Shown: positions 1 to 63,954 of the stretch, piece after piece
Position numbering within the stretch: position 1 is the first letter of the stretch
Layout of the letters: every line of letters begins with the position of its first letter
Source: Nannobrachium achirus
Taxonomy: Eukaryota; Chordata; Actinopteri; Myctophiformes; Myctophidae
Assembly (NCBI GenBank): GCA_963921795.1
Contig: OY997643.1
Span: forward strand, 13,217,043-13,281,042
Direction of reading: 5' to 3'
Length of the DNA: 64,000 nt
Notes under the pieces: generated by a model
Database searches by the model: none
Told to the model about the DNA's origin: nothing
What the model saw: only the letters and a program-made list of their open reading frames with translations
Program-made: the position numbers and the translations under genes

Positions 1-430
1 TTACTACAGGGGGTCCTCCAAATCTTTGTGTAATAGGACAATTCTTTTAAATGAACAACTGGACTCAATTTGTAGATCTGCTATTTTTGGCTAAAGTTCT
101 CCTCAGAGTGGGGATGTGAGGGTCACATCCCCACTCTGAGGAGAACTTTAGCCAAAACTAGCAGATCTACAAGCTCTCAACGCCTCGCAGCAGCTTGTAG
201 ATCGGCTATTTTTGGCAAATAGGTTTGGAGTGAAAGGTCAAATTTACTAACTATCAACGATTTAAGTGGTTAAATGTCTGAAAAAACACATTGACACGAA
301 TCCAACATAGACTGATGACAGTGCTGTCAAACAAGTCTATGAATCTATCGATGAAATCGATGCAAATCTGAACAGAATTCTATACAATATGTAGTGGGGG
401 TCCCTGCTTCATCTCCCTGTCAGCTAAATA
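1..430 (-). mobile_element. hAT-like MITE family A, copy A0 (enters from window edge)
   Basis: Matches the other family A copies (8930, 19109, 26822, 42628) in reverse orientation: the window opens in the conserved block GGGGGTCCTCCAAATC, and the far end keeps the GGGGGTCCCTGCTTC block. It is non-autonomous, with no coding capacity. The terminal GGTCCTTGGCCTG segment seen in the copies at 9190 and 43010 is missing, so the inner end is degraded. An internal inverted duplication at 71-170 and the shared hairpin at about 155-222 disturb it. Confidence 0.7.
69..222. repeat. Shared hairpin module plus inverted duplication of one arm
   Basis: Bases 71-118 read GTAGATCTGCTATTTTTGG and continue into GGGGATGTG; the reverse complement follows from 121 to 170, giving a near-perfect foldback of about 50-bp arms centred near 120. 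The second arm then forms the normal family hairpin with TTGTAGATCGGCTATTTTT ending near 215. So one hairpin arm and its flank exist in two opposite copies, unlike other family A members. Confidence 0.8.
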
Positions 431-1889
431 CCCCTGCAATAGTGTTTGGTCCATATAAGGATAGACCCATTTTGTCATTTGAATTAAATGAAATCACTTA
501 CCTATACCTTTAAGTGAGCAAGTCAAAGTTCAATACAACCATACGTGTATGTCTTTGCCAAGGGTTTATTGAGCAAATCAACTCAATATCTAGTGCAAAA
601 CTTTACATTTCATGCTCTCAAGAGTAAGAATTATTGTTTAACCTCTGCATTACATAATTTACAAGAAGTCTACACAATTAGAGATTGTAGAATCTTCTTA
701 TTTTGGCTGTTATCTCTCCTATAGTAAAAATATCAATACAGCGTGGAATTATCCAACGACAACAAAATATTCTATATATGTTTTTGGCTACATTTCATCA
801 AACGGTGGTCCGTGGCTCAACCGCTGAATAAATAATGGACCTGGATATGAGAAAGGCTGAAAACCACAGCACTAACTATTCAGTATTTATACAATATTCA
901 TCATCAGATGCCTTGATGCAGATACAGTAGATGAAGCTGGTCCCACCAATTAAGCTACAGTATGGCTCATTATACCAACCATGTGAAAATATAGTCCTTG
1001 GTGAGCACTATACCCGTGTGCTTGCCAGGCCCAGCACTGTGGAAATGTTTGTCTTAAGTGTAAAATTTGACCATTAAAAGTGTAAATCGTGTACATCAAT
1101 CAAACAACAGAAATAGCAAATCTACAAGCTCACTACATGTTGCAGGCAGCGCGACACATTTTGAGCTTTAGACCCGCTATAGAGCATCACAGTGGGTGTG
1201 GTTTACTGATTCCACAAAAAAATCTCCCATTCATTTCCTCAGACTTTCACGAAAATATTTATAACAATTATGTTAAGACATGAACCAAGCCATCCAGGAT
1301 CTCAGTGAATCATGACCATGAAACCGTTGTTTCTATGAAAATAAAGTTTTGAAAATGTATTGTATAGCTCAGAATTTTACTGTATATACAATACATGTCT
1401 GTGGCATGAACGGTAGGATGGGTTTGATTGATAGACTGAATCTTTAATGATCATGAAATAAAAACAGGTAACATAACATACTGTACATCTGACCGGAGCC
1501 ACCATAATCAAAAGGATAACGAAAGAAAGCGCAGCTTGTTTGTGTGCATGATATATCTAGAGTTCAAGATATGAACAAGTATCTGAGTGAATGCGTGAGA
1601 GTGCCTGCCACTCAAAGGGTATGTGTGAACAATTTCAATGTAGCAGGGCTACAACTCTATATACCTGCTGCTTTGATAAACAATCCTGATATCGTGCCAA
1701 CATGAAGGAAGGAGTGCCTTTAAAGTCTGTGCATTGGTTCTGCAATGCTGTAGTGTTATTTAGATCTCTGAATTCTTTCCACCCAGTTCTAACGCCAACA
1801 ACCAGACATATTGGTAGGAGGTGGAGAGCTCCAATACGTCTAGCTATCGAGACTCAGTACAAAGTAATATTCGGTAATAATACTTAAGC
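431..1889. other. AT-rich unassigned DNA with one degenerate hairpin
   Basis: No convincing exon. Short open frames lack codon-like structure. Bases 1111-1180 look like an eroded copy of the hairpin module (AAATAGCAAATCTACAAGC on the left, TTGAGCTTTAGACCCGCTAT on the right). A good GTAAGTG donor on the minus strand (501-495) has no open frame before it. Confidence 0.5.
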
Positions 1890-2249
1890 CAAACATTCAC
1901 AATAATCGTATTGTGGAGATTTAAGTTTATAGTGAAATTATTCTCCGTCATGCACCGGGATCAATTCACCTTTTATTTGCCGAGCTGCATATATCTGGTG
2001 CCATGTAAACCCTCTATAGGCCTAATTGGTCAAACGGACCTGGAAATAAAGAACTTGATAGTCTTTTTTTCACTCTCTACTAAATCTCTTTGCTAAAAGA
2101 TAGCCGATCTACAATCTCACAAGGCGCTGCGACGCGTTGTGAGCTTGTAGATTTGCTATTTGATGTAAAATGTCGCGATAATATCGTAAATCGCAATTTC
2201 TTTGGTCACAATAATCGTGACATGATATTTTCATATCGTCCTATCCCTA
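1890..2249 (-). mobile_element. hAT-like family H, truncated reverse copy
   Basis: Aligns in reverse with the intact element at 4765-5194 (shared AATCGTATTGTGGAG, the CGGGATCAATTCACC block, GATAATATCGTAAATCG) and ends in ATCGTCCTATCCCTA. The opposite terminus is missing. It carries a hairpin at about 2100-2161 (TAGCCGATCTACAATCTC with TTGTAGATTTGCTA). Confidence 0.75.
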
Positions 2250-3160
2250 GTTATTAGACTGGCGCTGCTAGAAGGGCCACAGCGTAGCCTAAAGCAAGCC
2301 GTATGCTCATCATTTTCCAACCAGTATCACTTCCAACAAGACAATCAGAGGGGGGAGAGAGAGATGAAGTCAATAATGCAAATGACCATCATCATGATGA
2401 GAATCTGCAATCAATTCTCAAAGATGGCAGCGCAATTTGTCATGGGGCCTGAGGGCACAAAAGTTAAGACAGAAAAATGAAAGTCTTACAACTTCAATCG
2501 TTAAGCCCTCTAGGCCTGTAGTCTACACAGGGGTCTTCAACGTTTTCAGGCCGGGGACCCCCAAACTGATGGGAAGATGGAGCAGGGACCCCCTACCTTG
2601 TAGGGTGGGGGCCAGGGGCTACAACATATATTGTATATTCATGTATAACATTGTGTTTCATGTGTAAACATAGTACCATGCTATTGTGCATTCAAATTAA
2701 TTTGCCCTTTAGGGCGAGGTCACATGTCGCCCTGAGGCGTCTTACTAGTATTGAAAATTAACGGTTCTCAAAATTCATGGTACGATTCGACTCGTTTGAA
2801 AATGAGAAATGCCAGAGGAATGTCTTTAATTTTGATTTATTAAACTTGGGCGAGCCTTAGCAGCAACCATGCGTTATCTACAGTAGTTACGAAGAGCAGC
2901 CGAGATTGACAAAGGGTCACTTCATTTCAGTCCACCTTCAGGCCAGGACAAGCTGCTTTCATTAGCTTGTTACTACCATAGGTCCATGACATCATCTCTA
3001 TGGGAATATGCTGGTTTTAACCAGATAAAAACAGTCTGTGGATATAACGCACGTACGCAACAAATACTCTTCTCCCTCATCTTCAAATACTGTCTCTCTA
3101 TCTCTCGCTCTCTCAACCACACACTGACTTTGCAACTTGCCTGATGTTGTTTGGGCTACC
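2250..3160. other. Unassigned DNA with a hAT terminus fragment (2525-2620)
   Basis: 2528-2560 carries GGGGTCTTCAACGTTTTCAGG, the family A terminus, followed by GGGACCCC-rich sequence, but the body does not continue. The remainder has a short CT tract near 3095 and nothing coding that I recognise. Confidence 0.5.
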
Positions 3161-3814
3161 TTAACTCATTGAGTGCCAGCCTATCACCACTAGAGGGCGC
3201 CCAGTGACCAGAGAATAATAGAGATATGCTGGTAATGCATGCCCAAGCCCTGGAGCCCAAGCCCAAGCCCTACTTGCCTGAACACTTTCCTTTGTGCATG
3301 TACAGGAAGAGGATGAAGTTAGCTTGAAGTTAGCTATTGGCTACCAAGCATTTTAGAAGCCTTATTTTCGTCAACTTAGCCATGATTAAACCTTGCACAC
3401 CTCATGCATGGGAAAAAAACAGAGAAGAATGAGCTCTAAAAAATCCAATGCAATCCTGGATTGCATTGGAGTGGATTTGTGCAGTTTGTTCACAGCTTTC
3501 AAACAAAAAAATCCGATTGGAAATCCGTTCAGGCATTCTTGAGATAATCGCCATTATGTTTTACATGTAATGTAAACAAAAATGGCTGCCCTGTATGTTA
3601 GATGGGGTTGTATGGGGGTGGAACATGCAAAATCGCGATTGAAATCATGTTCACCAGATTTGATGGGGTCCAAAAAACAAAACAAAAATTTAAAAAAAAA
3701 AATTTCAAAATTTTTTTTTTTTTTTTTTTAAAAAAGCCGAACTTGTTCGGGATCGGCACTCTACGATACGCTAATAAAGCCGAACTAGTTCGGGATTGGC
3801 ACTCAATGAGTTAA
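3161..3814. mobile_element. piggyBac-like non-autonomous element, TTAA-flanked
   Basis: Starts TTAACTCATTGAGTGCC and ends GGCACTCAATGAGTTAA: perfect terminal inverted repeats with a TTAA target duplication, the hallmark of piggyBac insertion. It is about 654 bp long and has no transposase. Near the right end a CCGAACTNGTTCGGGAT block occurs twice (about 3738 and 3781), a subterminal repeat. An A-rich/T-rich tract sits at 3680-3732. Confidence 0.8.
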
Positions 3815-4756
3815 GTCGGAGCACATCACTGGAGTGGATGTTTTTTTTGTGTGTGTGCTGTGATTGTGTTTGTTGTGCATAGTACGTACCAAACCAAATG
3901 CCTCATACCGTACCGTACAGTTAATATGAATATATACACTACTATTACACCCCCATTATATATATGTGTACGAATACATCTGTCCATTCTCTGCATTTGT
4001 GGCTGCACGTTTCCTGAAAGCTTATGGATACAAAAATGTTGTATTCTTAACATCCAATAGTGCATGTGAACAATGCCGCTTGCATTCTGCATGCGGACAG
4101 TACACGTTACAGAATGGGAGTATAAAAAATCAACAGTATCTCTGAAGTTTAGGAGTAAGAGTTATTTGTACTAGTAGTAACACAAATGTGCATGTAGTCA
4201 ACCAGTGTCACGAATAATTACATTTCCTGCTAATCAATTCAAAACAAGATTATTATAAGAATGACAACCGCAAAAGAGTAAAATAGAAACGCGTTCCTGT
4301 GAGTGAAAAAGAAAACTGTCACGCAGTGATTTAGTGCAAAAGATTGTTTCCCCAGGCTGTACAACAGCCTAAGGGACATGAGGAGGGTCAGCCACCTCTC
4401 GTCTTTAGCATGGACTTTGCAACATCAGGAGGGCTCTCTGTCTCTATCTCGGGTCAAAGGGTCTCAGATATAACTGCAACAGGGGCCAGATATAGCCGTG
4501 CTTGAGAAGTAGTCCGGAAAATCAATGCCATTCATCTGAAACTTTCAGCTAGCGGGAATAAGGATTTCCTATGAGCTATTGCTTCCTGCTAAAGCCACAA
4601 GAGAAATTAAGACTGAAAAAAAAAAAAAAAAAGCAAGCAACAGAGAATGCTACAAAACTGGAATGGTCTCGAAATGTATCGATATTCGCCTAATTTATTT
4701 TAGCACATTTTACACTTTTTTTCTGGGGAGGAGCCAAGCCTCTTCTGAGTGGAGGA
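3815..4756. other. Unassigned intergenic DNA
   Basis: AT-rich. A frame stays open for about 58 codons from 4330 to 4503 behind a TTTCCCCAG acceptor-like site (4348-4356), but I recognise no protein in it and it has no matching donor or start. I therefore do not call an exon. Confidence 0.4.
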
Positions 4757-4764
4757 GGTAGCAC

Positions 4765-5194
4765 TAAGGATGGGACGATATGAACATTTCATATCACGAT
4801 TATTGTGATGAAAAATTGCGATTTACGATATTATCGCGATAATCAAAATCCATTATCCTGGGGCGGAACTTTTGCCAAAAAAGAGCCGATCTACATGCTC
4901 ACAACGCGCCGCGTTGCGACCCGTTGTGAGCATGTAGATCTGCTATTTTTTGGCAAAGACATTTGATAGCGAGTGAAAAAAAGACTGTATCAAGTACGTA
5001 TATTATAAGTACCTTTTACCAATTCTAGAGGGTTTAAGAAGTGGTACCGGAAATGCAGCTCGGCAAATAAAAGGTGAATTGATCCCAGTGCATGACGGAG
5101 GACGATATCACGATCAATTAAATCTCCACGATACGATTATCGTGAGTGTTTTTTATCACGATAAATGATAATATCGCTTATCGTCCCATCCCTA
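4765..5194 (+). mobile_element. hAT-like family H, full copy with 8-bp TSD
   Basis: Ends TAAGGATGGGACGATA and TATCGTCCCATCCCTA form the inverted repeats; GGTAGCAC stands on both sides (4757-4764, 5195-5202), a perfect 8-bp duplication typical of hAT elements. Length 430 bp, no coding. The interior holds a long hairpin (4871-4957) whose stem includes TTTGCCAAAAAAGAGC and GCTATTTTTTGGCAAA. Confidence 0.88.
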
Positions 5195-5375
5195 GGTAGC
5201 ACTGAGTTAGAGCAAATTCTTTCAGATAAGGCTGCAGCAAAACGTGGACCTTGAGCATTTAAAAGATCTTTGATATTAGATATTTTGGAATGTCACTGGA
5301 GATTTACAGATTTACAGATTTACAGGCTCTGCATTTACATTCTGCTGCTCTGTTCCTTGGGACAGAGTGTGCTCA

Positions 5376-5870
5376 TTAAGGCATTTAGACCGGGTATGCA
5401 TGCTTTAACTTTAAAAAATATCAGATCTACAAGCTCGCAGCGAGCTTGTAGATATGCCATTTTTGAAAAATAGTGAACATTTGAATTTTGACCCGATTTT
5501 CACCCGATTCTATAAGTGTCTTCCAAATCCTTCTAAGGTTTTTTGAAAAACACATGTTTCTACGTCAGTGGTTCTCAAAACTCTTTCTTGTCCAGGACCC
5601 CTACAATTATATGTATTTGGCTGCCGACCCCCGCCCCCCCATCTCAAAATATTTAGTTCAAGGACCCCCCCCCCCCCCAAAAAAAAAGCAAAATCTGTGT
5701 TACAAATGTTCGCTTTAAAAATACATATATTCAAAGATTTGCCCACATTTTCATGATTTTTCAAAAATAGCAGATCTACAAGCTCGCAGCGCGGCCGCAC
5801 TGTGAGCTTGTATATCTGCTATTTTTCAATAGTTAAAGCATAAAATAACCCTAGGCCTAAAAGGCTTAAG
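5376..5870 (-). mobile_element. piggyBac-like family C with two hairpins
   Basis: TTAA at both edges. Two hairpins mirror each other: a short one at 5414-5464 and a longer one at 5763-5826. Between them lies a core with a hAT-like TCAGTGGTTCTCAAAACT end and GACCCCC tracts, in reverse order relative to the copies at 17899 and 52151. Non-coding. A C-run and an A-run at 5665-5688 look unstable. Confidence 0.75.
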
Positions 5871-7265: not shown

Positions 7266-7790
7266 GTTAAACCTTTATTTACCCAGGGTAGGTTGATAGG
7301 GCTGTCACGATATGACATTTTACATGACGATTAATTGTCACTCAAATAATTGGCGATTAACGATTTAATTGTGTTTTTGTCGTTGATAATTACATTTCTG
7401 TTTGGCTTTTAGGCTTTGAAGTTGCACATGGTAGATATGACACATAACCTAAATATACAAAGAAATTACTGACATATTTGACAACTTACTACTTAAAAAA
7501 TAACTTTGATAGTGGAAATAGCCGATCTACAAGCTCACAACGCGTCGCGATGCGACGCGTTGTGAGCTTGTAGATCTGCTATTTCCACTATGTTTGACTT
7601 TTTTCCTATTTTTTTAACATGGAAACGATTATGACGATTATGAAAAATAATCGCGATTATGTAATAATTGTGACAGCCCTATAGGTTGACTGAGCAGGAA
7701 TGCAGCAACACCCTGCTTCACACATTAGCACAAGCAAGGGTTCAGTGCCTTGCTCAATGGCAATACGACACTGGGCCCTTGTGTTTAACA
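7266..7790 (-). mobile_element. Retroposon 3' part, split by element I
   Basis: On the minus strand it reads GAGCAAGGCACTGAACCC, a block typical of fish tRNA-SINE/LINE 3' regions, and after the inserted element it continues to CCTGGGTAAATAAAGGTTTAA, an AATAAA-type 3' end. The inserted element at 7297-7681 divides it. The 5' boundary is not resolved. Confidence 0.45.
7297..7681 (+). mobile_element. hAT-like family I with perfect 8-bp TSD and long hairpin
   Basis: TAGGGCTGTCACGATAT and ATTGTGACAGCCCTA are the ends; TAGGTTGA is duplicated at 7289-7296 and 7682-7689. Length 385 bp. The hairpin 7509-7591 has 40-bp arms with a single mismatch and a 3-base apex; its outer stem ATAGTGGAAAT/ATTTCCACTAT is found in no other family here. 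The element sits inside an older retroposon. Confidence 0.9.
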
Positions 7791-8037
7791 GTCACATGCT
7801 TCTTGTTCTTTCACTCTTAACAGTCACATGCTTCTTGTTCTTTCTCTCTGAAACAACAGCAACCAGTCAGAAACAGCTAAGAGATGAAGTGATGCCCAAC
7901 TTTCACGCAAGGGTTCATCAGGGGACACAAACTTGTGGATAGTAAGGGCTGGGCCTTTGTTTACAATGTCAACAGACACTTACTTCTGGGTGCGTCACTC
8001 AAAACTCAGAATGTCAGACCTTACCTGACCTTGTCAG

Positions 8038-15749: not shown

Positions 15750-17898
15750 ACGACATTGTTGAATACAAACCTCTCTGATGTCATATTGATAATGTCATGT
15801 CGATCAGTTGTTTGCCCAAATATTGGGTTCACTTGAAATCTGGCACTGATCAGTATAACATTTGTGAGATTAAATGCAGGCAGACCTGGGCGGATGGATG
15901 GACACACAAAATCGGTACATACAATCACTGTACACGGAACATCCCTCTAGGTACAATGCCGTAACAAAATCCAATTAATTATGGTGCCAAAGCCTCAGCA
16001 AGAGTTATCCTAGATAAGATAAACCTTTATTGATCCCAGGAGGGAAATTCATAGCAGCAACGGCAAGTAAAAGTGAAACACAGGAGGTACAGGTACAAGT
16101 AAGAGAGTCAAGACCGAGACCAAGATACTGTAGGTAAGAATGAAATGAAAAAATAATAAAATAAATAAAATAAGATAATAATTATTGTTATACTTAGTTT
16201 CTTATACGAGGCAACTGCTCTGGGTCACTGAATGAGTGATGAGTGAGTTTACAGTACAGGATAATGATAAATCTAAATATATAAATGTACAGTCTATCAC
16301 ACCATTGAATATATGAGTGAAATTTATTCATATAATGTGTATTACAAAATAGCCCAATGACAAATAGCCGCCTGGCACCAAATAACCGCCTACGCCTGGG
16401 GTATGACTCTGACACCATTTTGTGTATTAAACGCCTGGTTCAAATAAACACCCCCGTTCGTTTAAACACCTGGGTTATTATTTGCTAATTATTCCATCCT
16501 GACTTAGTTTCGGATATTAAGTGCTGTGTGTGTCAGAGGTTGCGTTATAATATCACAGCAAATCTGTCTCCCTCTGTCTCTCTCACAAACATACACGCTG
16601 CATCGCTGGCGCGGCAGCTGTTAAGTTCTAACTTTAAGTTACACCCATTTCCTGGTAATAATAACCTGTGTAAAATGTGCTGCATTGGGAGGTAAATGGG
16701 AGAGACTTTATTGTGAATTTAAGACCGGAAGATAGTTTGTTGTTAGTGGTAAATTATTGAATAGAGTAGAGTTATTACATAGGCCTAGTTGTCGTCATTA
16801 GAAATGCAAGCTCGCTGCATTTCAGAGAGAAAGAGAAATGTACACGGTAGCCATGGCTGATTGCTGGTACCGTACAGTATCTTGCAATATTTGCACTACC
16901 ATTGTTGTTCTTTAAAGTACCGTACAGTATCTTGTTTTGTTATATCATAGACGAATACACAGAGTGCTGCATGTAAAGTTGCGCTGCGTGTAGAGTTAAG
17001 GTGCAAGCTCTGTGAATTCGTCTGCTTGTATTATGTTTACCGTAGGCTACATTACTGGTATGCCTTATAGCTTACAGTTGCCATATTTTACACTAGAAAG
17101 CATATTAAATGCCAGGCTACTATTGGTAATGTGGTACATGTACCAACTATCAATAGTGCTTGAGAAATAATATTATGTACAAATGACAAGAGGGAATTTG
17201 GATAATATGTACAGACTATCAGCAGGAAGGTCCATAAACAACAAAAAGGCTTGACACAAGAAAATGAACGTCAAGCTAGGCTCTTTGGATATACAAACAC
17301 AAATGTAGTAAAAGGGTTCAAATTGTAAATAATATATGAATAAATCATTGAAAAAAAAAACAGTAAAAAGGATTCAAATATTTGTGAAGAATATATTAAT
17401 CAAATGCATTAATAAAAGACATGTCTCTATAAATCATTTAAAAAACTGGAAGTACTGCCCAGCTCATACATCTTCCACTCCATAAGCTGCACATCCAAGC
17501 CCATCCAAGCCCCTGCTTCATTATTTTCTTCATGCACCATCTCTTTAACACATCCTCATCAATATGTATGCTAACATCAGAAAAGAAACGAAACAGTAAT
17601 ACTGTAAATCACCACAAAATTCACTGTACACAATCAGAACATGTGATGGGAGTCAGGTGGTGGTCATGCGATGATAATAATAAAGGACCGACATAGGTTG
17701 ATATTCAATTATTCATGCATTATTTTCATATTCACTCAGCTCTGACTTTTATGCGAACGATAGACTAGACTAGAGAGTATTTGAATACTTGAGTATTTGT
17801 CTTGCAGACACATTTACTGCAATCAGTAACAATGTACGTATAGTAAATGTAAATGTGATCATTATATCGAAGGAAACGGTAAGGCGAAACACTGTAAA
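15750..17898. other. Largely unique AT-rich DNA with a retroposon tail near 16013
   Basis: 16013-16100 reads on the minus strand as CTGGGATCAATAAAGGTTTATC, a retroposon-type 3' end with AATAAA. 16355-16475 contains a repeated GCCTGG-CAAATAANCGCC word, perhaps a MITE remnant. The rest has no exon or repeat end that I can support. Confidence 0.45.
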
Positions 17899-18494
17899 TT
17901 AACCCATTTATGCCTAGAATTATTGAATGCTTTAACCAGTGAATAATAGCAGATATACAAGCTCACAGCGCGGCACCGAGTGCCGCGCTGTGAGCTTGTA
18001 GATCTGCTATTTTTGAAAAAGTCATGAAAATGTGTGCAAATCTTGAATATAATGTATTTTCAAAGCGAACGTTTGTAACTCAAATTTTGCTTCTGGGTGG
18101 TCCCTGGAACTAAATATTTTAAGATGGGGGTCCGTGGCCAAATACATATCATTTTGGGGGTCCTTCTCATGAAAAGGTTTGAGAACCACTGACAGTAGTC
18201 TCTGAAGAACACACTTAACTGAGCTCCAGTTAAGTGAAAAGGATCTTTTCTTTGACGATGGCTAGCCAGATTGCTGACATAGAAACATAGGTTTTTCAAA
18301 AAACCTTAGAAGGATTCAAAGACACTTATAGAATCGGGTCAAAATTCTAATTTTCACGATTTTTCAAAAATAGCAGATCTACAAGCTCGCAGCGCGGCAC
18401 TCGGTGCCGCACTGTGAGCTTGTATATCTGCTATTTTTCAATAGTTAAAGCATAAAATAATGATACACATGTGTACCTGTTCTAAATGGGTTAA
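17899..18494 (+). mobile_element. piggyBac-like family C, full copy with TTAA TSD
   Basis: TTAACCCATTTATGCC at the left and CTAAATGGGTTAA at the right: piggyBac-type CCC...GGG ends at TTAA. The two hairpins (17942-18014, 18366-18438) are mirror images: the left one has AGATATAC in its outer arm and CACCGAGTG at its apex, the right one GTATATCT and CACTCGGTG. Between them lie a GTCCCTGGAACTAAAT block and GTTTGAGAACCACTG, the remains of an older hAT end. Non-coding. Confidence 0.85.
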
Positions 18495-19108
18495 AAGAGG
18501 AAAAAGGGTGCGTGGGCATGTGTCAGTATAACCTAATCTTTCAGTCAAAAGTAATTGATTTCACCCAGCAGCGAGAATGAAATAATGATGAGCTTAGAAC
18601 ATTGAGGAGCTTTAATGGCTGTCTTCATCAGCTAAATAATCCTTAAGCAAAGATAATATGAGTTTCAGGATTACTGATAGCACCCTGCAGTGCCTACAAC
18701 CTCATCTTCGCATATCCCATCGCCTTACACGTCTTGCTGCAAGTGTGATAATTATGTTGCCCTTCCTTTTTCTTTTTTTTCTCCTAAACGCCGCGCTCCT
18801 GAGGGAAGTGTGTGGACGTCGAGACAGAGCAACTCCTTTGCGGTTTTCCCACTCAATGAGCCACGAGTACACAGAATGCTAGATGGAGAACCACAACTCC
18901 CAGAAGGCCTTGTGGTTAGCTCCGACCCCCCTCCCCAACACTCAAGTAGCGCTAAGCTAACAAACCCACTGGGGCTCATCATGACGCGGCAGGGCTCAAC
19001 TCTGGGCCACCCTGCAGGGTCTGGACTCCACCGCAATGATCCTCAACGGCTCAACCTTTAACATTTCAAGGACCCCCAGGTTGATTAGCCCTGAAACATG
19101 GTATAGTG
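18495..19108. other. Unassigned, moderately GC-rich DNA
   Basis: Frames of 74-123 codons cross 18658-19061 on both strands, but none resembles a known protein and each overlaps another. I do not call a gene. Confidence 0.4.
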
Positions 19109-22096: not shown

Positions 22097-22819
22097 TTTG
22101 TTTTTTTTTGTTTTTAAGAATTTTTATCCCACGATTTTGCAACCCATTTTCACCCAGTGCCAATTGCCTATGTACTCCTGGGCCCTGCTCTCCCTCTGCC
22201 GCGCCTGGGGAGACAACGGACTGACCTCATGCTTCCTTCTATGCATGAGTAGTCCAAGTTGTTTCTTTTCACCTGACAGGGGGGATTTCCCCGGGATGGA
22301 CGTAGCGCATGGAAGGAACACGTTATTCCAACCAGTTCCTTTCCCCTCCATCAGGCGCCCCGGCTGGCCAGGGGGAGGCATTATAGAGACCAGGATTACT
22401 GCATGTTTTTGTGAGGGTATCAACCGGCAACAGTCCGCCATTCCGAAACACCGCTATTCCGAAGCAGGGTTAGGTTTAGGGTTAGGGTTAGGGGTAGGGT
22501 TAGGGGTAGGGGTAGGGTTAGGGTTAGTTAGGGTTAGGGTTAGGGTTAGGGTAAGGGTTAGGGTTAGGGTTAGGGTTAGGGGTAGGGTTAGGGTTAGAAG
22601 TCAACGTTCGGAATAGCGGTGTTTCGGAATGGCGGGGTGTAACCGTATCAACCCTAGGAGATACAGGGAGAACATGCAAACTCCACACAGAAAGGCCCTA
22701 TCGCCGACCCCACCTAGGGTGTGGGCACTGATGATGCGGAGGGAGGAACACGCCGGGAATCGAACCCAGGACCTTCTAGCTGTGAGGCGAAGCGCTAACC
22801 ACTACGCCACCGTGCCCCC
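22097..22819 (-). mobile_element. tRNA-headed SINE, reverse, with 16-bp TSD
   Basis: TGTAACGATACATTTT is present exactly at 22081-22096 and 22820-22835, a retroposition footprint. On the minus strand the head reads GGCACGGTGGCGTAGTGG (A box) and GGTTCGATTCCCGG (B box), then TTTCTGTGTGGAGTTTGC, and ends in an A-rich tail (22097-22116). The body is split by the 219-bp element at 22426-22644. Same family as 14465-14890. Confidence 0.88.
22426..22644. mobile_element. Foldback element N1 with telomere-like interior, 9-bp TSD
   Basis: GTATCAACC flanks both sides (22417-22425, 22645-22653). Arms share CCGCCATTCCGAAACACC and CGCTATTCCGAA in inverted orientation. The interior 22467-22598 is an imperfect GGGTTA array with GGGGTA variants. 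A 9-bp TSD suggests a Mutator-like origin. Confidence 0.8.
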
Positions 22820-24519: not shown

Positions 24520-24835
24520 GTGGGTATTGCATGAGAACCGTACAGCCCGAGATAGTTTGCAGATCTTTTTCAGAAATAGCCTACGTGAATTTTGTCTGTA
24601 TTGCAGCTAGGGCAACTGAAGTTTAGCTGCCTGGAACTTGTGTTTGTTGTTTTTGCAAACACCGGAATAGTAATGCTGACAAACTCGCTATAGAAAGGTG
24701 ACCTATGAAATGATAGCTTCAACAGATAGGCCCTGCATTGTTCCCGGCTTCAATATAACACCCAGCATGACTACGCTGCGCCGTGGGGAGCATGGAATTA
24801 ATAACCAAAACAATACAGTAGCACAGACCCCAGCA
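24520..24835. other. Unassigned DNA
   Basis: No repeat ends, RNA gene or exon seen. Confidence 0.4.
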
Positions 24836-25442
24836 CCAAGGGTGTCACAAGGGGGGGACAAAGTAGGACTGAGTTACTAGGGCCCAAGGTGGAGGGGCCT
24901 TCATTATTTAGCTATTGAAAAATAGCAGATCTACAAGCTTGCAGCGCGGCACCGAGTGCCGCGCTGCGAGCTTGTAGATCTGCTATTTTTGAAAAGTCGT
25001 GAAAATGTGTGCAAATCTTTGAATATAGTATGTCTTTTTAAGCGTAACTCAAATTTTGCTTCTGGGGGGGTCCCTGGAACTAAATATTTTGAGGGGGTCC
25101 GTGGTCAAATACATATCATTTTGGGGGTCCTTCACATGAAAAAGTTTGAGCACCACTGATTTAGAAACATTTAAAAAAAAACCTTAGAAGGATTTGAAAT
25201 ATTCAAGGACTTACACACATTTTCACGATTTTTTCAAAAATAGCAAATCTACAAGCTCTCGGTGCCGCGCTTTGAGCTTGTATATCTGCTATTTTTCAAT
25301 AGTTAAAGCACAAAATAATGCGTAGTAATGCATTCCCAGTCTAAATGGGTTAAACCCCCTCCCCCTATGAAGAACATTCATGGGGGGCCCCGCAGTGAAT
25401 CCTTGTACCCAGGGCCCAGAATTTGGTGCGACGACACCCCTG
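24836..25442 (+). mobile_element. hAT-like family F with nested C
   Basis: CAAGGGTGTCACAAG to GCGACGACACCCCTG. Two hairpins: 24918-24990 (complete) and 25236-25296, where the left arm is deleted from CTC up to the apex TCGGTGCC. TSD not recognised. Confidence 0.8.
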
Positions 25443-25631
25443 CATGAGTACATACCTACTGTATACACTCACACATCACACAAACATACATAATAAGCAC
25501 AGTGCCATGCGGGGCCAGCAGATCGAGGCAGGAAAAAGTGCTTAGATGTGCATATGAAAGAGTCAGCGAGAAGCCAAGTCGCCTCACAAGCCTCTCAGTC
25601 TCAGCCCATACTGTGCTCACCTTCATCACCA
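25443..25631. other. Unassigned DNA left of the duplicated segment
   Basis: Unique-looking sequence leading into the 250-bp duplicated unit; no exon recognised. Confidence 0.4.
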
Positions 25632-25883: not shown

Positions 25884-26372
25884 TATGACGTTCGCGAACG
25901 AATCAAGTCTTTTGAACGGCTCTTTGAAATGAACGATGGGATCTGGTTCGCAGTACAGGGAGCCTTCCTTTCTAAATGAACAGTTGTGGGAAAAGTGCAT
26001 TCTTTACTTATTATGTAAAAGTATCAATATTGCAATTTAGAAATACACTGCCAAAAGTAGAAGTTTGGAATTAAAATGTACTTCAGCAAAAGTAATGGTA
26101 TCAAAATGCACTTAAATGTCCCATTTTTCACAAGTTCTCCAGTGAACAAAATGTAGAAAAAAACATTTGAAAATAGCAGATCTACAAGCTCTATGAGCTT
26201 GTTGAGATGGGGGGTCCGTGGCCAAATACATATCATTTTGGGGGTCCTTCACACAAAAAGGTTTGTGCACCACTGACAAAGAAACATAGGTTTTTCAAAA
26301 AACCTTAGAAGGATTTGAAATATTCAAAGACTTTCAAGATTTTTCAAAAATAGCAGATCTACAAGCTCACCA
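25884..26372. mobile_element. Fragments of family E and family C
   Basis: 26008-26190 resembles part of family E (AAAAGTANTGGTATCAAAATG) ending in a hairpin arm TTTGAAAATAGCAGATC; it passes directly into family C sequence (GGGGGTCCGTGGCC) and a second hairpin arm that stops at ACAAGCTC (26369), where the right copy of the duplicated segment begins. Confidence 0.6.
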
Positions 26373-29305: not shown

Positions 29306-29754
29306 TTAACCCATTTAGGGCCTAGAATTATTGAATGCTTTAACTATTGAAAAATAGCAGATATACAAGCTCACAGCGCGGCACCGAGTGCCACGCTGTG
29401 AGCTTGTAGATCTGCTACAAATGTGAACGTTTGTGAAATTGTGTGCAACTTTTTCGATATATGTTTTTCAAATCTCTGCTTCTGGAGGGTCCCTGGAACA
29501 ACATATTTTGAGAATGTCATTTTGGGGGGTCCTTGACATGAAAAAGTTTGAGAACCACTGATTTAGAGGAAGGATTTAGAAGTCGGGGTCAAAGATCGGG
29601 TCAAAGATATTCAAAGACTTGCACACATTTTCAAGATTTTTTCAAAAATAGCAGATCTACAGGCTCGCGGCGCGGCACTCGGTGCCGCGCTGTGAGCTTG
29701 TATATCTGCTATTTTTCAATAGTCAAAGCATAAAATAACGGTTAAAGTGGTTAA
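29306..29754 (+). mobile_element. piggyBac-like family C, copy with diverged right end
   Basis: TTAACCCATTTAGGGCC to AAAGTGGTTAA. Hairpins at 29350-29418 (apex CACCGAGTG; right outer stem lost after CTGCTA) and 29644-29716. Confidence 0.8.
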
Positions 29755-41160: not shown

Positions 41161-41650
41161 CAGTGTTGATTTCGCCGACAAACTATGACGAAAAATGTTT
41201 GTCGACTGCGTTTTTTTCACTGACGAAAACGAAATAAAAACTAAGCTGTGATGACTAAAACTAAGACTAAATATATTGACAATTTCGTCAACCAAATAAA
41301 AACTAGACTAAAACGTTAGGGAGGGGACTAGTGGAGAAGAGAGTCATTTTATGTTTGGTTGCTCTCAGGTGTTGCGTGCTGAAAATAGCAGATCTACAAG
41401 CTCACAACGCGTCGCAGTAGATTGGCTATTTTCAGCACGGAACCAAGTGTAAAATCAGTCATTACGATGCCATCAAGGCCTGCCAAAATACATTTTAGTT
41501 GACTAAATCAACTGTAGATTTAGTCGCCTAAAATCTTATGATATTTAGTCGACTAAAATTAGACTCAAACTAAAACATTTCCGGTGACTAAATTATGACT
41601 AAAACTAAAAGACATTTTATTCAAAAGACTATGACTAAAACTATATCAAA
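41161..41650 (+). mobile_element. Family K repeat (GACTAAAACTAA-rich) with hairpin
   Basis: Starts AGTGTTGATTTCGCCGAC and continues with ACTAAAACT and TTAGTCGACTAAAAT words known from a common fish repeat. The hairpin at 41376-41438 has its own outer stem GTGCTGAAAATAGC/GCTATTTTCAGCAC and a shortened centre (GCGTCGCAG). Confidence 0.7.
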
Positions 41651-41879: not shown

Positions 41880-42627
41880 TCACTTCCCCTTTGCTTCCCC
41901 GTTAATTTACCTTCATCTCGGTGTGTTGAGGACTTCTTTCCTCGGTAATAAGACTTGACCTCCAAGTTTATGGATGAAATTCACGACTCGAGGGTGATTC
42001 ACGCCAGCCAGTGCTCATCTCAGATATCGACTGATGATATAAGACGTGATGACATAAAGCCAGATCACATTTTTGTGGTAAAAACTGGTGTAAGATTGGA
42101 GTGAAATGAACGCTTTAAGTTTAGTCATAGCGGTATATTTCAACCTCTCTAGAAAGTACGACTGCTTGAGTGATAAATTATTCTTTAAATATCATTATGC
42201 TGTTTCATTACATAATGCCATGCGGACCATTAGCCTGTCGTGGCCACATTTACAACTCCATAAATTATTAATCACTCTCCTCCTTTCATCACAGCTGGAA
42301 TGCTCTACCTGATTTGCAAGTTCCATGCGAGAAAACACTGACAGCCCAAATACTACCAGCCCACCTCAACACACAGAACGCCATAATCAAAGCCGGGTGT
42401 AATAAGATTAGAAAAACAACCTCAACTCAATGGAAATATGATTGACAGGCAGCAGCTTGTTAATTGGTTAAAAAAATGTACCTTCATATATTTTCCTCAA
42501 AATGTATATATTTTTCTCAAAATGTAGAGAGTAGCCAACTATTATTTCCCCTTTCTCTCATGTAATTTTGTCATTTTGCTCCATACACTTATTATCTCCG
42601 CTATGCTGGAACAGTTGTGATTTGTCA
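41880..42627. other. Repeat-free stretch, possible conserved non-coding DNA
   Basis: 42040-42480 is free of the window's repeats and contains homeodomain-like AT cores (CATAAATTATTAATCAC, CTTGTTAATTGG) and CATTACATAATG. No open frame. That it is conserved is a guess. Confidence 0.3.
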
Positions 42628-43040
42628 GTTTAATTCTTTTAAATTGACAACTTGAACCCTCGCATCCCAATTCTGAGGAGAACTTTGGCCAAAAATAGCA
42701 GATCTACAAGCTCTCAACGCCTCGCAAAAGGCAAGGAGTTGAGAGCTTGTAGATCGGCTATTTTCGGCAAATAGGTCTGGTGTAGAGGTAAAGAAAGAGC
42801 AGACCAAGTGAAAGGCAAAGTTTAGTAAGTAACAACGATTTAAGTGGTTAAAAGTCTGAAAAAAGCACATTAACACGAATCTAACATACATAGACTGATG
42901 GCAGTGCTGTCAAACAAGTCTATGAATCTATCTATGAAATCAATGAAAATCTGTATCACACCTTTATACAACATGTAGAGGGGGTCCCTGCTTCACCTCT
43001 CTCAACTAAGGGGTCCTTGGCCTGAAAAAAGACCCCTGGT
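42628..43040 (-). mobile_element. hAT-like family A with well-formed hairpin
   Basis: Matches A0 and 8930 throughout; ends near GCCTGAAAAAAGACCCCTGG. Hairpin 42688-42768 (GGCCAAAAATAGCAG ... CGGCTATTTTCGGC) with a longer GCAAAAGGCAAG apex. The left terminus is eroded. Confidence 0.78.
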
Positions 43041-47073: not shown

Positions 47074-47657
47074 CAGGGACATGCTGGGCCCCTGATTCAG
47101 CCCGGGAAAAAGAGTTGGAGAGGCCCTCATTGCGCGCTATAGAGAGAGATCTCTCTATAGCACTGCTGCTACTCAAAGATTTGCCTTTGAGTAGATTTCA
47201 GATCATGACAAGTGACAAGCCAGTGGGCAATTACATGAGTTATATTTCATTGTTGTCGGGTGGAAATCTTGTACCGTATGTCCAATACAGTTTGTTTTGT
47301 ATTTATCATTTAAAAAATGATTTAAACTAGTGAAAACAGCCGATCTACAAGCACACAACGCATCGCGGTGCGAGGCGTTGTGTGCTTGTAGATCTGCTGT
47401 TTTCACTACTTTTGTGCGACGGCCTTGTATGATGAAGCAGGGCTTTGCTTCGCGAAAAGATTTACAAATTTGAAACTTGGAGATACAAGTTTCTGCCCGA
47501 CAGTGACGATTTACTTTGTTGGCCGCCCAGCCCCCAAAATGGAATGAAGGCCAACATTTTATTATAATGTTTTTCCTAATGGCCGGCCTGGACCGGCCGG
47601 GAATGAACCGGCCGTTCAGGAGTTGTCCCGCTTTTCCCAATGGCCAGCACGTCCCTG
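47074..47657 (+). mobile_element. hAT-like family M with nested D, perfect TSD
   Basis: CAGGGACATGCTGGG to CCAGCACGTCCCTG; CTTCCCTA at 47066-47073 and 47658-47665. Nested D (about 47243-47512) has hairpin 47328-47408. Confidence 0.93.
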
Positions 47658-54533: not shown

Positions 54534-54804
54534 AACTCCTCTCCTCTTGGCAAGGCGACACCGCCTGCTCCCCGTCTCTCTCCACACAGCTTGATGTGGT
54601 CAGTCAGCAGGAGCGGGAGGTTGGAGGGGGGAATGAAACACTTTTTTTCCCTTCCTTTCCAGGCCACGGAGCTCATAGTTCAGGGCACATTTCCTCTCCA
54701 TGACAGCTCGACTCAAGGGACTGACACTTATTCTAGTGGTGGTGGTGGACTCGGTGGAGTGAGAAGTGAGGCTGGAATAATACGCTCGTGCGACTCCCCG
54801 CGCG

Positions 54805-57049: not shown

Positions 57050-57055
57050 GATCAA

Positions 57056-57766
57056 CAGTGATGGAAAAAGTACTCAAATTTTTTACATAAGTAAAAGTAT
57101 CAATACTGCAATTCAGAAATACTCTGTTACAAGTAAAAGTCCAGAATTCAAAATGTACTTGAGTAAAAGTACAAAAGTATTGGCATCAAAATGTACTTAA
57201 ATTAAAAGTACAACATGTTTGAAAATAGCAGATCTACAAGCTTGTAGATCAGCTATTTTCAAATAGCCAAGGTTTAAAACAGGGCTTAAGTGGTTTATGT
57301 GTGTTTTATAATATTTCAATTTATATCTGCAAAGTAACTAACTAAGGTTTTCAAATAAATGTAGTGGAGTAAAAGTACAATATTTGGATCCGAGATGTTG
57401 TGGTGTAGAAGTAAAAGTACTGGAAATTGGGAACACTCAAGTAAAGTACAAACACCTCAACATTGTACTTAAGTACAGTACTTAAGTAAATCGTGGTTAT
57501 CGGGTGGAAACCTCGTATCTCCAAGTTTCAAATGTGTACGTTCTTTCGCAAGCAGATCTACAAGCACACAAGCAGATCAACAGCAGATCAACAGCAGATC
57601 TACAAGCACACAACGCCTATGCGAGGCGTTGTGTGCTTGTAGATCGTCTGTTTTCACTAGTTTAAATCATTTTTAAAAGGATGAATGCAAAACAAACGGT
57701 TTTGGACATACAAGGTTTACACCCGATAACGACGAAATGTACTCTTTTTTTTTTTTTACATCACTG
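57056..57766 (-). mobile_element. hAT-like family E, reverse, hosting D
   Basis: CAGTGATGGAAAAAGTAC to TTACATCACTG; the body mirrors 8038-8545. The minimal hairpin at 57218-57263 (46 bp) has outer stem TTTGAAAATAGC/GCTATTTTCAAA. Element D (57487-57737) interrupts the right end. Confidence 0.8.
57487..57737 (-). mobile_element. Element D, reverse, with repeated hairpin arm
   Basis: AATCGTGGTTATCGGG to CCCGATAACGACGAA. The hairpin's left arm is reiterated: AGCAGATCTACAAGCACACA, then two AGCAGATCAAC units, then the arm again (57551-57616). Confidence 0.82.
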
Positions 57767-57922
57767 TAATCTTTTCAAAAGCCGGTCACGTTTCTGTTGA
57801 GACTGACTGACTGCTCGCTCATTGGAAAGAGATGATCAGAAAATCAATGCTGTTTACTTTCAATGGGGTTTCAGACAGAGATGATGTGAGCCAGAACAGG
57901 ATAAAATGAAATCTCACTCACA

Positions 57923-58436
57923 CAGTGGCGTCAGTTCAGCAAAAGCTAGGGTATGGCAAAGATGGGAGTCCTCATGGAAAAGAGGCATTACATTTTGTAT
58001 AACACGGTTCTATTGTGAAAATAGCCGATCTACATGCTCACAACGCCTCGCAGTGAGCATGTAGATCGGCTATTTTCACAATGTCTGAAAAAAAACAAAA
58101 AACTAGTTTTGTCAGTTTTTTACACAGGTTTCTGCGGTTTCTTGGGCTGGATATGGCAGCCCCGAATGGTTGTTCAAGTGCACCAAAACTTAGCATGTTA
58201 GTAAACGTGCCACAATTAACAATAATGCATTGCGCCTGTGCAGCTGACCTGCGGAACCTGGGAATATACCATCTTGTCAAGATGGGGAGAATACAAGTGT
58301 GGAGAATATAATTATAATACCTTGTTAAAGTGACCATTTTATTAAATGTTGCATTTTTTTATTTGCACTTTTATTTTCCCCCTGGACCCAGGGTATGTCA
58401 GCTGCATACCCCTGCCATACCCAATTGACGCCCCTG
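57923..58436 (+). mobile_element. hAT-like family J, perfect TSD
   Basis: CAGTGGCGTCAGTTC to CAATTGACGCCCCTG; CACTCACA at 57915-57922 and 58437-58444. Hairpin 58012-58082 shortened at the apex. TAACACGGTTCTATTGTG beside the hairpin equals reverse family B sequence. Confidence 0.92.
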
Positions 58437-58444
58437 CACTCACA

Positions 58445-59331
58445 GCCTACTTTCTTTCTTTCTGCAGGCACAAAGAAGCCTTTCTATTCTTTTTCGGGCA
58501 CACATCATAAATATCACAAACAATGCTGGTATATGCATATTTCATCAAAGGCCTTGCACGTCACTATCTTATCATCAATTTAACATCACGATTGATTATG
58601 ATAAAAGCATAAGACTCCTCAACAACGCCAGCTTCTTCTTTTTTGTGATTTTGCTTTGAGGAATTCAGTAAATGTATAAATAATATTGATTGTTGCCTGG
58701 TAACAGTATAGATATCCTGAGCCTGTCACACCCTTTGTCACCGATATTTTTCTAAGGGGAATTACAATGGGTGTACAACACATACTGTAATGTACGTACT
58801 CTATGTATTTACATTATGCAACCTTAAATCCTGTGTTGACTTAGTACTATAGTACTTGTCCGACTTTATTTCCGGGTAAACTTTATTTTGCCCCGCTATA
58901 CTACTCATACAGTTTTTGGGTTATTGGGCCATTTGTCATATGTACTTTAGTCGTGAATATATTTTCTTCATCGACTTGAATGGGAAAATGCTAAAATTTA
59001 ACTTTTCCCAAATATGGAGACACACAGATCTCGATATACAGTATGGCCATTAATTTATTTATTAGTGAATACATTTTCCCCCATTGACTTGAATGGGGAA
59101 ACTTCAAATGGTAATTCATTTGCAAGTGTGTCTCGCGCCACGGCAACCACGCTTTTTCTAGTTCATACACCCTTACGGGTCAATTTGCGTCCACTGGATT
59201 CCGAATTATTTGCTGGTACATGATTACAGAATGGTGTCATGGTCCGCTGGCAGCTTGCTAATTAATGCTCCGACCCCAATGCAAATCCATCAGTGCCATT
59301 TCTCTGATGAAAAGATCAATATGGCTTACAT
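58445..59331. other. Unassigned DNA
   Basis: 58915-59110 has two CCATTGACTTGAATGGGG-like stretches in direct orientation (about 58972 and 59080), otherwise nothing supported. Confidence 0.4.
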
Positions 59332-60195
59332 CAGTGGTTCTCAACCTTTTCAGGCCGCGACCCCCAAAATAATCATATTTTAACTGGGGAACCTCCACCC
59401 TGACAAGCTCGTGGAATTGTAGGTATTACATTTAATGTGACTCGGTTCCACAGATAAATATTGTGAAAATAGCTGATCTACATGCTCACAACGCCTCACA
59501 GTGCAAGGCGTTGTGAGCATGTAGATCAGCTATTTACACAATGTTCGTCTTGAAAGTCCTTAAATTGTCACTTTATAAATGTGCAGATACCTTGTATACA
59601 TTTATGTCGGTTTGTTTACCGTTGAGTGAGACATTTTGTTTTACATTAAAAAACTCTTTTACCGCTTCGGACGTTCCCGTTCGCCCCAATTTTCAACCCA
59701 GCTCGTTGCCAATACGGCTCTTCTTTTTACCTTGTCTGATGACTGTAAGCTGATGTGGGGTCGCGCCGCCGTGTACAGTAAAAACATCTCCCGTAATGCT
59801 GCTCTCAAAAATTCACCGCACATTAGCAATAATGGAGTCCCAAATCACTTCCTGGCTGTTTTCTGTGGATCTGTTCTAGAAAATGCATTTCTATGCTCTG
59901 AATGGATGGCAAGCGAAGCGGCCCAATTCACAGTCAATCTTTGCATAAGGCTGCACTCTGCCGCCAGCTTGGCTAAAGTACACATATGAGCATTGTATTG
60001 TAAAAATAATTCGTTTGAAAATATCAATAGATAATTTTCTATAACATCGCAAAGGTAAGCTGCTTTTTGCTGGCACCAGCCACAATAAATAAATAATAAC
60101 ATCTGGCAGTAGAACTGTTGATAATCATCTGGGGACCCTACAAAATAATTTGGGGACCCCACTTCGAGTCCCAACCCCAAGTTTGAGAAGCACTG
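59332..60195 (-). mobile_element. hAT-like family B, reverse, long copy, TSD 7/8
   Basis: CAGTGGTTCTCAACC to AAGTTTGAGAAGCACTG with GCTTACAT and GCTTACAC flanks. Hairpin 59460-59542 has a paired change, AGCTGATC/GATCAGCT. About 450 bp (59650-60110) between the B parts is not in other copies; it may be more of the parental element or a later insertion, and I see no transposase motif in it. Confidence 0.82.
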
Positions 60196-61067
60196 GCTTA
60201 CACCATCCGTGTAATAATGTGAAGTTTGTTTCCTTCTTCTATAAAGTGCTGACTGCAGGCCATCTGTAACGGCAGCAGGCCTTTTGTGTTATTGTGAGTC
60301 GACAAAATTATGTGATTCATCTTAAATAAATCCCTGATCCATTAAAAAAGTCTGTTTTGTTGATAACTTTTCTGGTCATGGACACAGAGAGGAATATGAA
60401 ACACGTTTATGACATAAAAATCGCAGGTCGTGGGTATATGCGAAGTGAGCAGGTCAAACACGACACACTGCATATCTCCTTGTATGGGCCGTTCAATCCG
60501 TGACGTCTGTCACTTTGTGTGTATGAGCAAGGATTTCCGTATGGAGATCTGTGCTTAAACATTAAACACAAAGTGAAATGTAGGAGCTGTTTGCACCGCT
60601 CATAAAACAATAAAAGAACAACAACAATATTGTACACCTTCTTTTGCTTTTTATTCAATACACTAGACTCTATTGAATAGAGCATTACACAATACATAAC
60701 AAATATTATGAAATTGTGTATTAGGCCTATAGCAATATTTAGAATATTTACAACATTTGAATGCATATTTATGAATACTGATACCGCGCGTAATCTCTGT
60801 CTTTTATAAATATTTATTTTCCCCTCTGCAAACCAATTCCCCATATAAACGTCTTGTTATCTGGGCATTTGAACAACACAGTCAGGCTTCGTGGAAGAAA
60901 GCTCAAAGCCACAGGATCTCAAGAATTTAAGAGGCTAAAATGTCACAGATGTGTATCTCTTGTGGCTTGTGTTGTGCTCCATACGTCGCACAGCTTTCCC
61001 TCTATATCCTTGGATGCAGGGGAAAAACAACCACATAACAGCGGAGAAAAAGAGAATAGAAGAAATA
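60196..61067. other. Unassigned AT-rich DNA
   Basis: No exon or repeat terminus supported. Confidence 0.4.
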
Positions 61068-61193
61068 AAAAAGAATACATCAGAAAAGAGCAAAAGAGGG
61101 AAAGATTTGCCACAGAGGCACAAAAAATCCAAGGTCCAGGCACTCAGGTGGATTTAGAAATAAAAGGCCTTTATTTGTGAACAGGCTAGAACA

Positions 61194-61815
61194 TTAAAAC
61201 CCATTTAGGCCTAGAATTATTGAATGCTTTAACCAGTGAAAAATAGCAGATATACAAGCTCGCAGCACGGCACCGAGTGCCGCGCTGCGAGCTTAGATCT
61301 TAGAGCTTAGATCTGCTATTTTTTTAAAAGTCGTGAAAATGTGTGCAAATCTTTGAATATAATGTATTTTCAAAGCGAACGTTTGTAACTCAAATTTTGC
61401 TGCTGGGTGGTCTCCGGAACTAAATATTTTGAGATGGGGGGTCCGTGGACAAATGCATATCATTTTGAGGGTCCTTCACATGAAAAAGTTTGAGAACCAC
61501 TGACATAGTAGTCTCTCAAGAACAGACTAACTGAGCTCCAGTTAGTGAAAAGGACCTTTTCTTTGATGATGGCTGGCCAGATTGCTGACATAAAAACATA
61601 GGTTTTTCAAAAAACCTTAGAAGGATTCAAAAGACACTTATAGAATCGGGTCAAAATTCGAATTTTTGCGTTTTTTCAAAAATAGCAGATCTACAAGCTC
61701 GCAGCGCGGCACTCGGTGCCGCGCTGTGAGCTTGTATATCTGCTATTTTTCAATATTTAAAGCATAAAATAATGATACACAATAATGTGTACCCGTCCCG
61801 TTCTAAATGGGTTAA
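61194..61815 (+). mobile_element. piggyBac-like family C, full copy with TTAA
   Basis: TTAAAACCCATTTAGGCC to CTAAATGGGTTAA. The left hairpin (61238-61325) contains a tandem duplication of its right arm (GAGCTTAGATCT twice); the right hairpin 61678-61750 is complete. Confidence 0.86.
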
Positions 61816-61819
61816 AAAA

Positions 61820-61870
61820 CACCAACGCGTTTCGGCAAATGCCTTCTTCAGGGTGTCAGTAACACCCTGA
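61820..61870 (-). ncRNA. Hammerhead-ribozyme-like motif with all core elements
   Basis: Minus strand: ACACC, CTGAAGA (fits CUGANGA), A-GGC-ATTT-GCC stem II, GAAAC, GCGTT, GGTGT. Stem I pairs ACACC with GGTGT perfectly, and stem II GGC with GCC. The stem III region is minimal (AC/GT around GC), as in small type I motifs of Penelope-like elements, which often need dimers. A palindromic second half-copy runs the other way (ACACCCTGAAGAAGG on the plus strand at 61862). Confidence 0.5.
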
Positions 61871-61955
61871 AGAAGGTGATGTGAGTGCCTGGACCTGGAT
61901 TTGTTGTGCCTCTGTGGCAATTTTTTTCGTCTTTTGCTCATTGTATTCCCTTTCA

Positions 61956-63053
61956 TGAGCACCGCGGTGGTTTGAGGGATACCAGTAGCGCCCCTGCTAT
62001 CTTCTTTCTCTGCACAACAGAAAAGAGTTTAGTATTTTTGGCCTTGCTAGCAGCGGATGGAAACCTTGATCGGTCTAACACTTTAGTCCCAAACAAGTTA
62101 TCTAAAATAAATGTATATTTGCTGGATTGCCATGGAATTGTATGTACAGCTTCATGCCCTGATGATGATCCCTGCTGACCCCATGGGTCTTTCCTCTAGC
62201 GCCACCATTACGGCCGAGCTACACCAAGCCGGTTTGCGCGCGTCAGTGTGTATGCGTGCGTATGCGGGTCGTGCGCGCGTATGCGCGTTTTGGATAGATC
62301 CAATGTATATCAATTCAGCCGGCTACACCAGGCGTACGGATAGCGCGAACCACGGACACGCATTCCCTAAAAATAGGATTGGTTCTATTTTTTAAGCACG
62401 CGTATGCGTTTTGTACACTATCTGGTCTTCCTCACATATAGGCCTACTCCCTCCTTGGTGTAGCCTGGAGCGTTTACGCATACTATATCTGGTCTTCCTC
62501 ACATATAGGCCTACTCCCTCCTTGGTGTAGCCTGGAGCGTTTACGCATACGCGAGCGTCTTCACGGACAGTACGCGCGTATGCGCGCATTTTTTGGTTTA
62601 GTCCGGCCGTCAGACCACAATCTCCACTTGCACCCACGATACTGTATGTATGTCAAAATGTAATGGGTAGATAGCAGAATGAATCCTACTGTATTTGGTG
62701 ACTATTATCTTTTCTCTTGTGTCACCTTTGAGTGAATTAACAATAAATGCCCAATTCAAATGTTTTACATGATTTTCCATAAAACATTTTGCCTCCCTCA
62801 CTAAGGGGATCACAGGTCTCTGTGGTGGTCAAAGCACCAATTGGTTCCAACCACCTTGGTCCAGCAGGGTGATTAATAATAATAATCTCGAGCACTTATT
62901 AACCACTTTCTACTGTACAATTTTCAATCCTTTTCAAAAATAGCAAAATAAGATCCACAAGCTCGCATCGCGTTGGGAGTTTCTACTGCAAGTGGGCTAT
63001 TTTAATACAACACCATTGTAAGACAATCCAAAATGGAGATTACAGTAAAGGAA
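61956..63053. other. Unassigned DNA with a 68-bp tandem duplication
   Basis: TCTGGTCTTCCTCACATATA through GGAGCGTTTACGCATA occurs at 62421 and 62489 (period 68). The area is rich in GCGTATGCG words. A degenerate hairpin lies at 62934-63003. Confidence 0.6.
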
Positions 63054-63250
63054 TAGTTCACCCCCAAGAAGACTCTTTTTTTTTTAATTTATTCTCACGC
63101 CGGAATCAATGGGGGTAAATTCATCGTAATCAAATTATTGTTTTAGGAATACATACAGACAAAAAACAAAACATTTTATTGAACTCAAGTCTCCATGGTG
63201 TGAGAAATCAATGGAAAAAAGGTCATTTTGGGGGTGAACTACTCCTTTAA
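63054..63250. mobile_element. MITE family S, shortened copy
   Basis: TAAAGGAATAGTTCACCCCC to GTGAACTACTCCTTTAA; about 110 bp shorter than the other two copies. Confidence 0.78.
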
Positions 63251-63324
63251 ATGGTTAAATCAGTTACAAAGATAAAACAAAGGGATAAGTATGCGACATA
63301 ACAAGAGACCATAAACCATAAATG

Positions 63325-63445
63325 CACCCTTAATGAACTGGTGGGTGTGGCCACATAAAAACGTAATTTTAACACTTTCTGTACACTTTTTTGGAAGAAA
63401 TCTTCCTCTTAGTATAATCATAATACCTGATCATCATGTTTTAGT
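63325..63445 (-). mobile_element. Fragment of element T
   Basis: Reverse match of about 120 bp to 56650-56790 (GGTGGGTGTGGCCACATAAAA, TTTTAACACTTTC, TATAATCATAATACCTG). Confidence 0.65.
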
Positions 63446-63686
63446 GGTTCACGTGTTGAAAAGAGGGGCTTTATAGTCTCTTAGTCTTGTTTATTCATGT
63501 GAAGCTACTGTATGTACTGTATATATCTATTTAATAATTGAATCCTTGAATTAATTACCTCGGACTGACAGTATGGCTTACAGATCAATATGACTAGAAT
63601 GTATAATCTTACATCTTTACATTGCATCATGGCTTTCAGTTTTTTTTTTATATAAATATAAATAAATTGTGATTATTATAATTATA

Positions 63687-63954
63687 CATATCGTCGCTGT
63701 CGGGTGAAAACCTTGTATGTCCAAAACCGTTCGTTTTGCATTTACCATTTTAAAAATGATTTAAACTAGTGAAAACAGCCGATCTACAAGCACACAATGC
63801 CTCGCACCGCGAGGCGTTGTGTGCTTGTAGATCGGCTGTTTTCACTACTTTTGTGCGACGGCCTTGTATGATGAAGCAGGGCTTTGCTTTGCAAAAGAAC
63901 GTACAAATTTGAAACTTGGAGATACAAGGTTTCTGCCCGACAGTGACGATATAA
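63687..63954 (+). mobile_element. Element D, free-standing, perfect hairpin
   Basis: CATATCGTCGCTGTCGGG to CCCGACAGTGACGATAT. Hairpin 63767-63847, arms of 39 bp with one mismatch, outer stem TAGTGAAAACAGC/GCTGTTTTCACTA. No M sequence around it. Confidence 0.9.

Follow-up and report, generated by a model that had tools for sequence, protein, structure and literature searches.

A palindromic hairpin present in many transposons of Nannobrachium achirus is probably the core of one small TTAA transposon

A stretch of 64,000 nucleotides from the myctophid fish Nannobrachium achirus (assembly GCA_963921795.1, contig OY997643.1, positions 13,217,043 to 13,281,042; hereafter the window) contains a palindromic hairpin that recurs in many different transposon contexts. 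We propose that for the most part this hairpin is probably the central part of a single, highly abundant type of small transposon, nested in other transposons, with arms that are kept matching by mutual copying. A small TTAA transposon bearing the hairpin core would insert into other transposons, the inserted core would then be multiplied along with its host, and the two halves of the hairpin would be kept alike by copying from each other through template switches.

Abundance of the hairpin in the window and the genome

A preliminary description of the window put the hairpin at more than 50 occurrences in many different hosts, and the counts agree. The half-stem AGCMGATCTACAWGC is present in 52 exact copies (both strands together) and a further 38 with one mismatch; it has no match in five model sequences. 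Allowing up to two mismatches gives 60 hairpin loci in 11 labelled contexts, and all 13 hairpins previously listed as well formed are real. Folding of six window hairpins gave much greater stability than folding of shuffled versions of the same sequences. Palindromes tend to lose part of their center; here the full core is retained at 26 of 42 two-armed loci and the center is partly lost at the other 16. Extending the stem search to the whole assembly (1.66 Gb, 564 contigs), as had been proposed, established that the hairpin is not restricted to this locus. Exact copies of the half-stem GATCTACANGC number 262,434 + 262,143 = 524,577, compared to 209 + 171 = 380 for the same pattern read backwards, and there are 89,254 exact two-armed hairpins (a pattern that is its own complement) compared to none for the control. 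Twenty 10-kb stretches, each taken at 5.0 Mb of contigs 1 to 20, contain 72 hairpin loci per 200 kb, so the window is about 2.6 times richer than this background sample.

Carrier elements and their hosts

The elements that carry the hairpin in the window (labelled by letter, all given on the + strand) include family B (17899 to 18494), a TTAA element with TTAACCCATT at both ends and inverted arms of 111 nt (90%), in which each long inverted repeat holds one hairpin (cores 17948 to 18008 and 18372 to 18432). Its variant B2 (29306 to 29754; cores 29356 to 29416 and 29650 to 29710) has the right end TTAACCACTT, a terminus in common with families W and T. Such elements sit inside other transposons. 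Family A (24834 to 25459) is a hAT-like host containing a B-like element whose right end is complete to TTAA and whose left end is short (TTAACCCATT end at 25335 to 25344). Family W (42560 to 43040; core 42697 to 42759) is a hAT-like host enclosing a TTAA element with TTAACCACTT ends, one at 42842 to 42851 and the other mutated, at the same host site as in L042 (L-numbered loci are genome sites outside the window). Family I (47074 to 47657; core 47338 to 47398), a hAT-like host with the target site duplication CTTCCCTA, contains a complete copy of Y (63692 to 63948; core 63777 to 63837), itself an element that has an inverted repeat of 33 bp (CGTCRYTGTCGGG..). Family V (4763 to 5151; core 4884 to 4944) is a different host, with the end GGATGGGACGATATG, in which profiles match both hairpin flanks to those of W, and family T (57051 to 57330; core 57227 to 57254) is a host with GTACTTTTACT repeats whose hairpin has a B2-type end. 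The hAT-like hosts have an 8-bp target repeat, and TTAA is present at both element ends in B at 17899 to 18494, in L031 to L042, and in L016 at 4945 to 5135. Between 30 and 80 bp of hairpin-adjoining flank are common to several families, as would follow if all hosts descended from one ancestral hairpin-bearing transposon of which only the ends diverged; however, A, W, and I each consist of a host and, within it, an element whose own ends differ from those of the host, and such descent is highly improbable.

Linkage of the hairpin to TTAA ends

Genome-wide, TTAACCACTT placed 30 to 60 bases ahead of the core occurs 7,376 + 7,530 times (control, 0), and among about 100 matches listed there were W-, T-, B2-, and Y-like flanks as well as intact TTAA versions of T. 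Elements having both ends number 680 + 627 (control, 0), some loci being counted on both strands. Twelve of these (L031 to L042), a nonrandom set picked because they belonged to one recurrent subtype or had unusual sequence, were read with 120-base flanks. Nine (L031 to L036, L038, L040, and L042) sit, in one orientation or the other, at a single position of a single hAT-like host, with flanks that match one another or the W host of the window and sample. L037 and L039 have flanks that match neither those of the other elements nor the W host, with short pieces found elsewhere only, and the TTAA-bounded copy in L016 (4945 to 5135) lies outside identified hosts. The TTAACCACTT end also occurs with GTGRAAAYAGC arms (34 + 39 matches; control, 0), the sequence from end to arm being mostly different.

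Flank comparisons extend the association to other families. The T end scores 21 compared to at most 16.5 across 1,494 distant windows, and the 16.5 itself comes from a W end. V and W fit one profile on each flank: at an expectation value (E) of up to 1, the hairpin adjoins 18 of 22 matches to the first-flank profile (best E of the four elsewhere, 0.015) and 17 of 19 matches to the second, where the two exceptions are a truncated W copy and a V-like fragment in L021. Matches that had not seeded these profiles were recovered at L016:5023 (E = 2e-6), L008 and L009 (E = 2e-8), and L023:151 (E = 6e-4). The motif pair GTGGTTAA/TTAACCAC has 32 sites in 288,088 bases, and outward hairpin flanks account for 16 correctly oriented occurrences and for no wrongly oriented ones, compared to an area-based expectation of about 2.8, although overlapping flanks may score one site twice.

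Several contexts weigh against a TTAA origin for every hairpin. The flanks of family Z and of host U (7297 to 7681; core 7520 to 7580), a hAT-like element with the target site duplication TAGGTTGA, match no TTAA-element flank. Y resembles a TTAA-type flank over 31 nt (E = 0.04 to 2), and in several copies the match is anchored at the hairpin, but the direct comparison is not significant. V would be tied to TTAA elements through its W-like flanks. A hairpin with a partly lost center in another host (41387 to 41429) has a flank that recurs at L025:2343 and was compared pairwise only. The preliminary description attributed the distribution to independent spread by insertion or conversion. That cores sit inside differing hosts is in keeping with this, but they probably ride mostly in the TTAA element, and it is unlikely that the hairpin is itself mobile and enters existing transposons alone.

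Paired changes in the hairpin arms

In a set of 11 hairpins that represent eight labelled families, 93.9% of the 440 cells are paired, with two-sided changes in 17 of 40 pairs and a one-sided change in 1 of 40. On each of five pairing measures, all 500 shuffles fall short of the observed value, and slid controls pair at 30 to 44%. A second, independent set (51 distinct 53-base hairpins of contig 1) gave 677 paired cells out of 765 free cells, compared to 596 in the best of 1,000 shuffles; pair 9/45 is AT in 41 of these hairpins, TA in 10, and mixed in none. Between six families, represented by a consensus or single hairpins, there are 113 two-arm and 53 one-arm differences. Within families, comparison of four sets with 22 copies in total gave 47 one-sided and 3 two-sided changes, and these 3 are no excess over shuffling (mean, 1.3; 219 of 2,000 shuffles reach 3). 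From these patterns we infer template switching between the arms.

Individual copies bear on the same process. In L041, the inner flank of a B2 right hairpin repeats the outer flank in inverted orientation as far as TTAA, giving a 149-bp TTAA palindrome that is self-complementary at 142 of 149 positions. This locus was found through a pattern demanding two TTAACCACTT ends, and no other among 104 two-armed hairpins has extra pairing beyond 24 bases. L041 can be aligned with the window copy at 29650 on either side of the added piece, and the right flank of L041 also matches the outside of that copy; therefore, the change occurred in place, with no sign that the palindrome moved. A W copy (1 to 427) has a 47-nt flank mirrored from within the hairpin (46 of 47 identical), and in the I copy at 47338 the loop reads GGT, as opposed to ACC in two sister copies. 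In RNA genes, template switching is described as producing paired stem changes in one step, perfect new stems at once, and inverted loops (PMC8794818); there, it makes or mends hairpins of RNA genes, whereas the present palindrome forms the core of a mobile element.

Alternatively, the stem may be kept by selection on a structure needed for transposition or as RNA, through compensatory mutations and without template switching. Two-sided differences do separate the families and do not set old copies apart, which is the pattern expected under selection of active source copies, and the segment around GATCTACA is nearly invariant, though the search pattern favors such a result. However, 33 of the 46 two-sided cells in the 11-hairpin table are double transversions, which cannot pass via a G-U pair; the mirrored flanks and the inverted loop at 47338 are footprints of arm exchange; and Rfam at its gathering score returned no known structured RNA in the window. 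We regard selection as a doubtful account of the stem. Divergence inside and outside the hairpin gives mixed evidence, because I (6.5% inside, 3.1% outside) runs opposite to A (4.1%, 6.9%), B (2.1%, 7.1%), and Y (5.0%, 7.6%).

Relationship to known elements

The closest known case is that of the CMITE and CMITE-IN elements of the coral Acropora, small TTAA elements tied to piggyBac-like transposons, in which the internal region is better conserved than the ends, tandem arrays are known, and insertion of a CMITE produced a new element (PMC2872659). An internal region common to families with different ends was likewise found here, a likeness of description rather than of compared internal sequences. 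In contrast, the CMITE internal region is not described as a hairpin in the accessible part of that source, the hosts seen here include hAT-like elements, and the copy estimate for CMITEs is about 1,600, compared to 89,254 exact two-armed hairpins here. The V domain of the mammalian MER6 miniature inverted-repeat transposable element (MITE) is a conserved module multiplied inside an unrelated DNA transposon, but it is derived from a short interspersed nuclear element (SINE) and has one carrier (PMC6887750), whereas the present module is a palindrome with many. Xenopus T2-MITEs are abundant, long-lived TTAA MITEs with many subfamilies and Kolobok-type AGGRR ends, for which no shared hairpin core is named in the part of the source at hand (PMC6004289). 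The ends here read CCAC or CCCA and fit neither the piggyBac motif CC[C/T]T after TTAA (quoted in PMC2872659) nor AGGRR next to TTAA, and the element is therefore not filed with piggyBac or T2-MITEs. Pfam gave no match in the ten window frames scanned, and no genome search for a transposase was made. The element would work like a piggyBac- or CMITE-type MITE.

Other arrangements of the hairpin

Some portions of the hairpin are apparently arrayed in tandem, as in CMITEs: half-stems repeat at a regular spacing of about 30 or 43 bases on contig 1 (about 839,744 to 840,531; 469,826 to 469,959; 744,594 to 744,652), with a small case in the window at 57549 to 57613. At L003 to L006 (contig 1, 26.7 to 34.6 kb), L016:1554, and L016:7489, the same hairpin and flanks recur every few kilobases, and the hairpin there looks like part of a larger repeated unit. 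The interior of B (17889 to 18496 and other B copies) includes an apparent end of another hAT-like element, CAGTGGTTCTCAAAC reversed, and B itself seems to be a mosaic. The segment at 26000 to 26370, with a T-type flank on one side of its hairpin, A/B interior on the other, and then SINE-like sequence, is a chimera joined at the hairpin. A single hairpin at L028:3959 has a W-type flank on one side and a V-type flank on the other, and a Y copy at L025:8345 to 8375 lacks the hairpin, with remnants of the outer arms abutting as after palindrome deletion. Apart from the hairpin, the window holds about 22 copies of the vertebrate telomere unit AGGGTT (22466 to 22597; 89% match).

Implications for the origin of MITE families

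We tentatively suggest that the palindrome might also be a seed that regenerates transposons, whose ends turn over while the hairpin persists. Given the likeness of the two arms, a single template switch at the hairpin could transfer a copy of one side's flank and end to the opposite side, and a hairpin that kept a single working TTAA end could thus become a complete palindromic element again. L041 and the mirrored W copy at 1 to 427 would then be such rebuilding events; neither was seen to have moved. If true, this would account for the occurrence of one core in very many element families. The formation of new MITE families is poorly understood, and two routes to them, riding in a host and rebuilding ends from a palindrome, may be countable here in one genome. 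The hairpin further cautions that covariation within a repeat does not necessarily imply selection on an RNA structure.
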